Made by a program: the position numbers and the translations under genes. Shown here piece after piece: positions 9,271 to 46,008 of a stretch of 64,000 bases of DNA. Source of the stretch: Dietzia sp. ANT_WB102 (GTDB lineage Bacteria > Actinomycetota > Actinomycetes > Mycobacteriales > Mycobacteriaceae); the NCBI RefSeq assembly GCF_008369165.1, contig NZ_VOBA01000003.1, positions 1 through 64,000 of the forward strand. The letters run 5' to 3'. Below the pieces are notes generated by a model, which made no database searches, had not been told where the DNA came from, and worked only from the letters and a program-made list of their open reading frames with translations. The first letter of the stretch is position 1. Each line of letters begins with the position of its first letter.

Positions 9271-9312
9271 CGCCCCTATAGCTCAGTTGGTAGAGCTACG
9301 GACTTTTAATCC
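9271..9312 (+). other. attL: tRNA-Lys 5' half (host copy)
   Basis: The tRNA-Lys sequence runs from the acceptor 5' strand through the anticodon loop (CTTTTAA) and then breaks into phage DNA at 9313. It matches 45931-45973 except for one missing T in the D-loop (GTTGGTAG here, GTTGGTTAG there). The identical block to the right of that difference is 22 nt (9291-9312 and 45952-45973) and is the likely crossover region. Read leftward, the block also encodes the last residues and stop codon of the repressor gene. Confidence 0.92.
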
Positions 9313-9588
9313 ATAGTCCGTGTTTTCTTCGCCCCCGCCGCCTCCGGTGGGGGTTTTTCCTGTTTCGAGCCAGGTGGCGTTGACGCCAGTCATGAGGGCG
9401 ATCTGCATGATCTGGTGCCGCTTCGGTGGGACTCCATCGTCGCGGCACCACCTACTTATGGTGCCGCGGCTGAGTTCGAAGTAGTCCATGAGGTCTGTCT
9501 GCTTGAGGCCGGCGGCGTCGATTGCCATCTGGATGCGCCATCCGAGGGTGAGTTCCGGGACGCCGTTGGGCTGGATGCTGTGTGTCAT
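9283..9588 (-). CDS. Immunity repressor (XRE/HTH), C-terminus encoded in the attachment core
   Basis: A 101-residue Cro/CI-type DNA-binding protein expected to hold the prophage silent. The helix-turn-helix is at about residues 14-70 (GLKQTDLMDYFELSRGTISRW, then VNATWLETGK). A Gly/Glu linker and a tail ending GLKVRSSTN follow; that tail is written in the tRNA-Lys core and stops at a TGA in the tRNA D-arm. In rebuilt attP the extra T shifts past this stop and the frame continues 24 residues to a terminal EAAA (see 45878-45951). I chose ATG 9588 because TTGACC-N18-CATACT ends six nt before it (leaderless) and a perfect operator-like palindrome overlaps it. A longer start at 9624 would lie inside the promoter. 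The design matches integration-dependent repressors of BPs/Brujita-type phages; the stability difference is inferred. Confidence 0.88.
   Translation of the reverse strand: MTHSIQPNGVPELTLGWRIQMAIDAAGLKQTDLMDYFELSRGTISRWCRDDGVPPKRHQIMQIALMTGVNATWLETGKTPTGGGGGEENTDYGLKVRSSTN
9318..9335 (+). repeat. attP arm repeat, left prophage end
   Basis: CCGTGTTTTCTTCGCCCC just outside the core. A near-identical copy, CCGTGTTCTTCGCCCC, lies at 45921-45936. In circular phage DNA the two are direct repeats flanking the core, so they are candidate arm-type integrase sites. Confidence 0.5.
9332..9358 (+). terminator. Intrinsic terminator inside the left attachment arm
   Basis: Stem 9332-9339 / 9346-9353 (one G-T pair) followed by TTTTT. 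It would stop rightward transcripts from the orphan tRNA promoter before they run far antisense to the repressor. The same bases encode the Gly-rich linker of the repressor on the other strand. A smaller hairpin (ACGGACT/AGTCCGT, about 9299-9321, then TTTT) precedes it. Confidence 0.65.
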
Positions 9589-9695: not shown

Positions 9696-9884
9696 ATGAC
9701 ACCCACGGAACTGCTCACAAGCACCCAAGCGGGCGTCATTCTCGGAAAGTCCAGCCGCACCGTGATCCGACTCATCGAAGCCGGAGCAATCACACCCCTC
9801 GGAAAACTCAACGGACCCAACGGCCCGTACGTGCTCACCAGGACCGCGGTCGAGGACTACGCCGAGAAGACACTCGCCGCATAA
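9696..9884 (+). CDS. Excisionase/Cro-like small HTH protein
   Basis: A 62-residue protein with a MerR/HTH_17-type winged helix: LLTSTQAGVILGKSSRTVIRLIEAGAI followed by a wing (PLGKLNGPNGPYVLTRTAVEDY). Proteins of this size and fold beside a repressor are typically excisionases or directionality factors, or the Cro-like partner. First rightward gene, read from its own leaderless promoter, so it would start the lytic programme. It ends TLAA, an ssrA-like C-terminus. The ATG at 9696 is preferred over an upstream in-frame start because of the promoter position. Confidence 0.75.
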   Translation: MTPTELLTSTQAGVILGKSSRTVIRLIEAGAITPLGKLNGPNGPYVLTRTAVEDYAEKTLAA

Positions 9885-40342: not shown

Positions 40343-41263
40343 GTGCAGCAGGATACCGCTGCGCGCCCCGTCGGCGCGCCCGTTCCCCCCACCTTCGACA
40401 CCCTCGATCTCATGGTCGACGGGTTCCTCGCCCGCTTCACCTCCCCCGCCACCCGCAGCGCCTACGCTGGCGATCTCGCCCTGTGGCGCTCGTGGTGCGC
40501 CTCCGGCGGGCTGGACCCACTGACCGTGCAGCGCGCCCACCTCGAACTGTTCGCCCGCTGGCTCGAGACAGAACGCGGCAACAGTGCCGCCACCGTGCAT
40601 CGCAGGCTTGTCAGTTTGCGGTCCTTCTACCGTGTCCTTGCCGCCGACGGGATGATCCTGTCCTCGCCCGCGGAGAGTGTCCGACTGCCCAAGGTGGTCC
40701 GGGACCGCACCAAGTACACCCACCTGACCCGCGGGGAACTGTCGTCCATGCTGCGCGCTGCCGATGAGGCCTCCCCCACCGATGGGGCGCTGCTGGCGTT
40801 GATGGGGGTCCTCGGCTTGCGGGTGTCGGAGGCGTGTTCGCTCGAGGTGGATTGTGCGGACCGGTTCGAGCGCGGGCATCGGATGCTCACCGTCACCGGT
40901 AAGGGGGGCGGCACCACCGGCATCCCGGTTCCCGTGCAGGTGGGTCGGCGGTTGGATCGGGCCCGCGGGGACCGGCAGTGCGGGCCGCTGTTGGTGCGCC
41001 GGGACGGGACGCGGATGACGCGCCGGTCGGCGGCCCGTGTCGTGGCCCGGATCGCTGCCGCTGCCGGTGTCGACAAGTCGGTGTCGCCGCATGACCTTCG
41101 GGCCGCGGCGATCACGTGCGCGTTGGACTCGGGGATCCCGTTGCGGGATGTGCAGACGATGGCCCGCCATGCCGATCCGCGTACGACCGAGATCTACGAC
41201 CGTTCCCGCGGCGACATTGATCGCCACGGTGCCTACATTCTCGCCAGTTACCTCGCTGCCTAA
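40343..41263 (+). CDS. Second tyrosine recombinase, in the lysis region
   Basis: 306 residues from GTG 40343. N-terminal SAM-like core-binding domain (about 20-110), catalytic domain with R160 (LGLRVSEACSL), K187 (TGKGGG), H250-xx-R253 (SPHDLRAAAIT), H276 (MARHADPRTTEIYDRSR) and nucleophile Y285: all key residues are present. It is XerC/D-like rather than like the integrase at the right end. Its place between tail fibre and LysB is unusual; it is far from the att sites and probably not the main integrase. It ends SYLAA. The job could be multimer resolution, an inversion system, or a cargo gene; the sequence does not decide. Confidence 0.9.
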   Translation: MQQDTAARPVGAPVPPTFDTLDLMVDGFLARFTSPATRSAYAGDLALWRSWCASGGLDPLTVQRAHLELFARWLETERGNSAATVHRRLVSLRSFYRVLAADGMILSSPAESVRLPKVVRDRTKYTHLTRGELSSMLRAADEASPTDGALLALMGVLGLRVSEACSLEVDCADRFERGHRMLTVTGKGGGTTGIPVPVQVGRRLDRARGDRQCGPLLVRRDGTRMTRRSAARVVARIAAAAGVDKSVSPHDLRAAAITCALDSGIPLRDVQTMARHADPRTTEIYDRSRGDIDRHGAYILASYLAA

Positions 41264-44911: not shown

Positions 44912-45823
44912 TTACGCGGCGCCGTGTAGCCGCGGGACGGATTGCCACGGGTCGAGGCGGTCAATAGCGTCACGACGCACCTCATCGGGTAACTGCGCAT
45001 AAATAGCGGTCGTCGCAACATTCTGATGCCGCAGCAAGTCTCTGACTGTGTAGATGTCGGCGCCATCCGCGAGGAGTTGCGTGGCGAAGAAGTGACGCAA
45101 CTGGTGCGGGGTACCTGTCACCCCGGTACGGCGCATCTGATCCGAGATGGTGCGAGACACCGACTTGGCTTGGACGTGTTCGGACGGGTAGTGGCGGGAC
45201 GGGAACCACCAGCCCCGGTCAGGCATCCGCCGCGACCACTCCCCCACAATCGGATGCAGCGGTAGTTCTGCCGGCTTCTTGCCTTTGCCTTTGACTCGTA
45301 GGGTTTGGCGGTCCAGGTCGATGTCCTCGGTGCGGATTTTGGCGATCTCATGGACCCGCAACCCCTGTAGTGCGGCGAGCAGGATCATGGCGTGGGTGGA
45401 CATGCGGGTGGGGGCTGACAAGAGTTTCTGTACGTCCCTGCCGGAGAGGGGGCGCGGGAGCCGTGTCGGGGCTTTGGGTGTTCCCACTTTCACCATCGGG
45501 TTGTCGGCCCGGTGATCGTGTGCCTGTAACCACTTGAACCAGGCGTTGAGGTATCCGACGTAGTTGGCGATTGTGGAGTCGGCCCAGGTGTCGTGTTCTG
45601 CTATCCAGCGGGTGATGATGAGCGGGTCAGCGTGCGCGGGCTGGACGCTTGTTTCGCGGAAGAACTGCGTGAGTACGCGGCGCCGTTCGCTGATGGTGTT
45701 GTGTGCCAATCGTCTTGCGGCTTGCCACAACTCGTATTCGTCAAGGTGTGTGATGGGCATGGCGTTACTGTCGCTCACATCACGCAGCCGGGGGTGTCGT
45801 GTTGCCGGGTTGTTATATCCCAT
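44912..45823 (-). CDS. int: Phage integrase (tyrosine recombinase)
   Basis: 303 residues. N-terminal arm/core-binding region (about 25-115), catalytic domain R156 (LQGLRVHEIAKI), K180 (KGKGKK), H240-xx-R243 (TPHQLRHFFATQ), H266 (LRHQNVATTAIY), Y275. All catalytic residues are intact. It sits 54 nt inside the right prophage end. In circular DNA it lies directly downstream of the repressor on the same strand, so both could share one transcript. It ends RLHGAA, an ssrA-like AA terminus, as known for BPs-type integrases. Start is uncertain among ATG 45823 and an ATG before PITHLDEYELW at about 45760. Confidence 0.93.
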   Translation of the reverse strand: MGYNNPATRHPRLRDVSDSNAMPITHLDEYELWQAARRLAHNTISERRRVLTQFFRETSVQPAHADPLIITRWIAEHDTWADSTIANYVGYLNAWFKWLQAHDHRADNPMVKVGTPKAPTRLPRPLSGRDVQKLLSAPTRMSTHAMILLAALQGLRVHEIAKIRTEDIDLDRQTLRVKGKGKKPAELPLHPIVGEWSRRMPDRGWWFPSRHYPSEHVQAKSVSRTISDQMRRTGVTGTPHQLRHFFATQLLADGADIYTVRDLLRHQNVATTAIYAQLPDEVRRDAIDRLDPWQSVPRLHGAA

Positions 45824-45895
45824 TGGTGTTATTCACTGCCTGCTCGATGGTGGGTGTGTGGTCGAGCGGGCCGGGTGTCATGCGGCTGCCTCTCG

Positions 45896-45924
45896 TTGGA
45901 ACAGATCACGGACGGTGCTACCGT
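45896..45924 (+). promoter_or_regulatory. Phage-borne promoter of the functional tRNA-Lys
   Basis: TTGGAA (45896-45901), 17-nt spacer, TACCGT (45919-45924), then 7 nt to the tRNA 5' end at 45932. It replaces the host promoter left behind at 9234-9264. The same bases encode the viral repressor tail on the other strand. Confidence 0.65.
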
Positions 45925-45936
45925 GTTCTTCGCCCC
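45921..45936 (+). repeat. attP arm repeat, right prophage end
   Basis: CCGTGTTCTTCGCCCC, matching 9318-9335 except for two T residues. Its last bases are the tRNA acceptor strand. Confidence 0.5.
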
Positions 45937-45973
45937 TATAGCTCAGTTGGTTAGAGCTACGGACTTTTAATCC
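45931..45973 (+). other. attR: tRNA-Lys 5' half (phage copy)
   Basis: As attL (9271-9312) but with an extra T in the D-loop (GTTGGTTAG). The 22-nt block 45952-45973 is identical to 9291-9312. Host DNA resumes at GCAGGTCGCC. Confidence 0.92.
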
Positions 45974-46008
45974 GCAGGTCGCCGGTTCGAGCCCGGCTGG
46001 GGGCACCA
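45932..46008 (+). tRNA. tRNA-Lys (TTT), hybrid of phage 5' half and host 3' half
   Basis: Acceptor GCCCCTA/TGGGGGC, D-arm AGCTCAGTTGGTTAGAGC, anticodon loop CTTTTAA (anticodon TTT), T-arm GCCGG-TTCGAGC-CCGGC, encoded CCA. Sequence upstream of the anticodon is from the phage, the rest from the host. Confidence 0.96.

Follow-up and report, generated by a model that had tools for sequence, protein, structure and literature searches.

How can one stretch of DNA serve as half of a working tRNA gene on one strand and, on the other, decide where a phage repressor ends? The question is raised by a prophage in Dietzia sp. ANT_WB102, which lies in the 64,000-nucleotide (nt) stretch that we analysed (contig NZ_VOBA01000003.1, positions 1 to 64,000; hereafter the window). 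The prophage (approximately 9313-45931) occupies the gene for tRNA-Lys(TTT), and its flanks are two copies of the 5' part of that tRNA. The sequences make it very probable that this element uses integration-dependent immunity with a core in the tRNA 5' half, and that one extra T in the phage copy shifts the reading frame of the virion repressor past a TGA stop.

The two tRNA-Lys cores and the two repressor ends

The left core (9272-9312, CAGTTGGTAGAGC) is a fragment only, with the D-loop GTTGGTAG at 9286-9293. The right core (45932-45973, CAGTTGGTTAGAGC) lies within a tRNA-Lys(ttt) gene called by ARAGORN (45932-46008) and has the D-loop GTTGGTTAG at 45946-45954. The cores are identical at 41 positions, and the sole difference between them is one D-loop base. 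An earlier note on this DNA had given the host copy an 8-nt D-loop and the phage copy a 9-nt one, and had claimed that on the reverse strand the host version puts TGA directly after RSSTN, past which the phage version shifts into a tail; reading the two cores and both frames confirms each of these points.

To follow the frames, we rejoined the left and right attachment sites (attL and attR) in silico into the phage site (attP), and we read the natural sequences together with two loop swaps. The repressor carries recognisable domains (PF07022, E = 4.7e-9; phrog_2328, E = 2.4e-22) and, in the first 86 residues of its 113-residue open reading frame (ORF), shares about 60% identity with the immunity repressors annotated in Gordonia phages Phishy and Ewald; the ATG at 9588, the start that matches relatives best, is probably the one used. 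In the rejoined attP a single open frame runs from the repressor through the core into a tail that ends VRSSNQLSYRGEEHGSTVRDLFQREAAA before its stop, adding 22 residues to give 123 amino acids (aa) with the end -EAAA. When attP is given the 8-nt loop it stops at the same TGA as the prophage form, and when attL is given the 9-nt loop its frame meets no stop in the host DNA that was read (174 residues, counted from the TTG start). These two swaps indicate that the host bases, being one T fewer, stop the prophage form and that the phage T opens the virion form. Read in antisense, the host 5' half has a stop in each of its three frames (TGA, TAA and TAG), so that only the extra base opens a tail, and in the phage 5' halves of the two Dietzia prophages described here frame 0 alone opens.

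The second of these prophages is a 42.8 kb contig of Dietzia cercidiphylli (G020), with an integrase 73% identical to that of the window and ending in -NAA. Its repressor (HTH_3, E = 7.6e-9) is not listed in the search with the window repressor, but blastp aligns the two at 29% identity, as distant relatives rather than unrelated proteins. The host half has GTTGGTAG and the phage half GTTTGGTAG, with the T at position 17a, and the two contig ends agree. The prophage form ends ...DYGLKVRSSTN and the rejoined form VRSSTKLSYRGVIEDSNVVPMRRQAVAA, i.e. ...VRSSTKLSYRG...AVAA, each followed by a stop. The extra T is thus at the other variable D-loop position, yet the frame outcome is the same as in the window. 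The loops of the two prophages are unlike at two positions, and the simplest history would be that each arose by its own insertion into an 8-nt ancestor.

Intact tRNA-Lys genes elsewhere identify the host allele. The earlier note had predicted an 8-nt loop at the empty sites of relatives and a crossover to the right of the indel, and both predictions agree with what we find. Apart from copies that a 5'-half prophage created, every tRNA-Lys of the genus relatives has the 8-nt loop (21/21), as do the further family loci examined (7/7). Of 23 genus genomes, two have the core with one added base, and these are the two that carry 5'-half prophages. Of 397 genomes in the order, one has it, namely that of the window, compared to 63 of 397 for the 8-nt form. 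Among the genome_contigs, a set that may not include the genome of the window, it is present in one stretch only, the same D. cercidiphylli contig, and the viral_contigs hold 39 stretches with the core when the extra base is made optional, all of them 8-nt. Judging by this distribution, the longer core is not a chance match. At attL the 8-nt loop lies beside host DNA, and at attR the 9-nt loop lies beside phage DNA; since attL has the D-loop of the relatives, the exchange falls to the right of the indel. In another prophage of the genus (G016), whose integrase is 83% identical to that of the window, attR differs from the tRNA at position 35 by a base that comes from the phage, and the exchange there must lie to the right of 35. 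The window core ends at position 41, and the two integrases presumably cut alike.

The rebuilt tRNA appears able to work. Length variation in tRNAs sits at D-loop positions 17a and 20a; the adjacent tRNA-Asp naturally has the same 9-nt loop, GTTGGTTAG, and ARAGORN calls a tRNA-Lys with either D-loop length. The second-best match to tRNA-Lys(TTT) in the genome is a tRNA-Met, the gene appears from this search to be single-copy in the host, and ARAGORN finds no further tRNA inside the prophage. The tRNA-Asp loop and the ARAGORN calls, taken with the finding that nothing else in the genome matches tRNA-Lys(TTT) strongly, suggest that a tRNA-Lys with the 9-nt loop is functional. The host promoter remains at attL, and therefore the phage must drive the rebuilt gene. 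A hexamer of the form TANNNT ends 7 nt upstream of the tRNA in the two phage flanks, in the host flank of the window and in 21/21 genus host copies, but in 0/4 copies from other genera (background: 42 sites in 36,619 bases of prophage), and a phage-supplied promoter at TACCGT is suggested by this pattern.

In the scheme that we propose, the 3' end of the virion repressor would run antisense through the tRNA-Lys 5' half and continue for about 20 codons to -EAAA, a putative ssrA-like degradation tail, and an ATGA overlap would lead from the long repressor towards the integrase. Exchange would occur at about tRNA positions 36-41, towards the 3' side of the anticodon loop. The repressor would then be joined to the host 5' half, in which one D-loop base fewer produces the TGA and a tail-less, stable repressor. 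The essential tRNA would now be expressed from the phage 5' half, which has the T at 20a and probably brings a promoter as well. This T would have a double role, shifting the frame past TGA in the virion and sitting where tRNAs tolerate variation in length. The two cores, the two reading frames, the 8-nt allele of the host, the tails and a second case with the T elsewhere can be read from the sequences; what we infer is that the long form is degraded, that the short form represses, that the promoter is active and where exactly the crossover lies.

We think it fairly likely that this is a distinct form of the switch, in which both 5' halves give a working tRNA and their antisense readings differ. 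As the host half offers no open antisense frame, the phages would converge on one added base at the two variable-length positions of the D-loop, 20a in the window and 17a in D. cercidiphylli, and one base would be at once tRNA nucleotide, frame setter and determinant of lysis or lysogeny, tying the phage to hosts with the shorter D-loop. A single nucleotide at a tolerant tRNA site could satisfy two unrelated constraints, a working tRNA and a conditional stop on the opposite strand, and the prediction is that such a phage needs a host tRNA-Lys with an 8-nt D-loop in order to switch.

Related prophages and known systems

Integration-dependent immunity was described for mycobacteriophage BPs and for phages of clusters G, I, N and P (PMC4557955, PMC9934374). 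In these systems attP lies within the repressor gene, bacterial DNA supplies the stop at attL, the virion form is longer and has an ssrA-like -AA end, a tyrosine integrase lies downstream, and a small helix-turn-helix (HTH) gene is divergent. The window has the same arrangement: its attP core is inside the repressor coding sequence, the bacterial attL sequence gives the stop (TGA 9283-9285) and a shorter prophage repressor, the virion form has an end that matches ssrA-like sequences (-EAAA), a minus-strand tyrosine integrase with its own C-terminal -GAA lies downstream beside the tail, and a small HTH gene diverges from the repressor. The repressor sizes are also similar (103/136 aa in BPs, 101/123 aa in the window). 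By its sequence, the architecture fits the features that PMC9934374 ascribes to such systems.

Five phages that match tRNA-Lys (Dogfish, WST1, Carcharodon, Phishy and Ewald) carry the 3' half of the tRNA (about positions 25/28-76), whereas the window phage carries the 5' half. Because they carry the 3' half, the half that sets the stop is free of tRNA constraint in those five, unlike the window, where the deciding base sits in a tRNA that must work. In Mycobacterium phage Carcharodon, ARAGORN reports a complete tRNA-Thr(ggt)-like structure over the attachment region within the repressor gene (L136, 1319-1396), which may simply be a chance fold that involves the 3' half of tRNA-Lys. When phages were searched with the 42-base core, the matches listed (40 of 2006 records) were mainly whole tRNA genes of phages.

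The rebuilding of a tRNA 5' end by an integrated element is a rare geometry. Of 3919 islands in Islander, 159 have a 5' fragment, compared to 3760 that have a 3' fragment, and the window, with its fragment, its complete tRNA and an integrase between them, belongs to the 5'-fragment class of tDNA islands. The MabA1 prophages of M. abscessus also rebuild a tRNA 5' end, at tRNA-Met, and in the part of PMC8092301 available to us their attB-5 is absent from the sites listed for integration-dependent immunity. As a control we examined one record of such a 5'-half prophage, prophiGD11-1 of M. abscessus, in which the cores are identical (42/42) and no repressor is annotated at the att ends. Fionnbharth and its relatives show tRNA-dependent lysogeny, in which, according to PMC10865867, integration at tRNA-Lys-TTT takes place near the anticodon and the phage, instead of rebuilding the tRNA, complements it with a whole tRNA of its own. 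The window phage likewise integrates near the anticodon of tRNA-Lys-TTT and supplies the essential tRNA, but it does so by rebuilding tRNA-Lys at attR, with no other prophage tRNA. Ten of the viral contigs have 8-nt tRNA-Lys 5' halves that are followed by non-tRNA sequence, and these are probably attL sites of mycobacterial prophages. In 11 of the 39 viral_contigs stretches, all without the 3' half, the antisense strand was read with one att end in view, and no repressor-like reading was seen.

Across 401 family genomes we find 26 repressor-like loci, of which 17 adjoin a complete tRNA, two adjoin a 5' half only (the window and G028) and seven have no tRNA close by. G016 resembles the window in using the same tRNA-Lys gene, with a host stop after ...NRRPAD and a phage tail ending ...REIAA, but its core is a 3' half and the deciding difference is an anticodon mismatch (TAA to TAC in antisense), which is harmless because that copy is merely a tRNA fragment. 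G028, from another genus (L042, L144), has a repressor of the integration-dependent type with the tail ...KKARTAA and a complete phage tRNA-Lys(TTT) beside attR, and it looks like a combination of tRNA-dependent lysogeny with integration-dependent immunity. It was rejected as a third D-loop case, since its stop lies in the anticodon loop and it has its own complete tRNA-Lys.

Integration-dependent immunity itself is already known, and so is a decision by one base, as in G016. Two features of the window look unusual, namely that the tail is coded opposite a working tRNA and that only an extra base opens it. Our literature search, with subscription papers outside its scope, found no description of a D-loop indel or of a 5'-half core together with integration-dependent immunity. 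The 3'-half core, the 5'-half core with an added D-loop base and the whole phage tRNA form a natural set for asking how switches move between attachment geometries.

Alternative explanations

The extra T might be a neutral D-loop variant taken from a tRNA fragment of another host, in which case the immunity would be real and the switch would rest on the flanks. D-loop lengths do vary naturally, as the loop of the window tRNA-Asp illustrates; yet attP without the T has no long form, the remaining core matches the host genus, the genome sets searched contain no tRNA-Lys that combines this core with a 9-nt loop outside the two prophages, and in the second phage an insertion at the other variable position leads to the same frame. 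We consider a neutral T unlikely. If instead the crossover lay to the left of the indel, the 9-nt loop would belong to the host and the 8-nt loop to the phage, both repressor forms would end at the TGA, and there would be no switch. The sole point for this arrangement is the lack of an empty site from this species, and it conflicts with the 8-nt intact sites of the genus relatives, with the phage mismatch at position 35 that the related integrase leaves in attR, and with a tail that is open to its -EAAA end in the 9-nt frame only, which makes it extremely improbable.

It could also be argued that the repressor is an ordinary short one, that the antisense tail is a chance frame and that immunity is independent of integration; the tail has only about 22 codons, and the case for it comes from sequence rather than expression. 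However, the rejoined long forms end in AA in 4/4 prophages (window, G020, G016 and G028) and so do 6/6 annotated phage repressors (Dogfish, WST1, Carcharodon, Phishy, Ewald and phiGD34-2), compared to 7/323 stop-to-stop frames of 100 or more codons in the window. The host tmRNA (transfer-messenger RNA) tag, ADTNQRDYALAA, ends in -ALAA, which the -EAAA of the long repressor resembles. In both Dietzia prophages the stop of the long form overlaps a downstream ATG (GCATGA) towards the integrase, and the gene order is that of the described systems, so a chance tail seems very unlikely. Several observations weigh against the D-loop switch that we prefer. The data contain two cases of it only, and in one of them, G020, both att sites are at contig ends. 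We looked for an empty attB of the Dietzia sp. ANT_WB102 species and for a virion sequence and found neither, and attP was rejoined from attL and attR. G028, whose repressor also adjoins a tRNA 5' half, keeps the host supplied with tRNA-Lys in another way, by carrying the complete gene, and the G028 integrase has no AA end. A consensus promoter scan finds no sigma-70-type site upstream of the attR tRNA, and for this reason the phage-supplied promoter stays suggestive only.

Neighbouring genes and feature coordinates

The integrase of the window is 52-55% identical to those of cluster N-type mycobacteriophages and of Gordonia phage Dogfish. A short ORF lies between the stop of the long repressor and the integrase, and its overlaps suggest translational coupling in the virion frame only. 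In G020 the same place is taken by an 89-aa ORF.

Table. Positions of the attachment sites, repressor forms and adjoining genes in the window
Feature	Position	Strand	Basis or remark
attL core: displaced 5' half of host tRNA-Lys(TTT), 8-nt D-loop GTTGGTAG	9272..9312	+	host version
attR: rebuilt tRNA-Lys(TTT), phage 5' half and host 3' half	45932..46008	+	ARAGORN
Extra T (TT vs T; GGTTA) at D-loop position 20a	45951..45952	+	core comparison
Inverted repeat ACGGACT / AGTCCGT, 7 bp, 10-nt spacing; candidate integrase core arms, centred on the presumed crossover	9298..9321
Prophage-form immunity repressor, CI-type HTH, 101 aa from ATG 9588 (113 aa from mechanical TTG start 9624), ends VRSSTN	9283..9588	-
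Repressor TGA stop made of host D-arm bases in antisense	9283..9285	-
Remnant 3' end of virion-form repressor, codes ...VRSSNQLSYRGEEHGSTVRDLFQREAAA and stop, opposite tRNA 5' half	45878..45973	-
TACCGT, TANNNT hexamer ending 7 nt before tRNA; candidate phage-supplied -10	45919..45924	+	as in genus host copies
Tyrosine integrase, 303 aa, C-terminus RLHGAA	44912..45823	-	PF00589 E 3.7e-26
22-codon ORF; ATG overlaps long-repressor TGA, end overlaps integrase start	45813..45881	-	read by eye
Divergent small HTH_17 gene (excise/Cro-like)	9696..9884	+	PF12728 E 5.9e-6, slightly below curated cut-off; position as in annotated relatives

A second tyrosine recombinase is encoded within the window prophage (40343-41263, plus strand; PF00589, E = 2.8e-21) and has the C-terminus ASYLAA. 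The G020 prophage contig also has a weak internal integrase match (C144:40176-40802).
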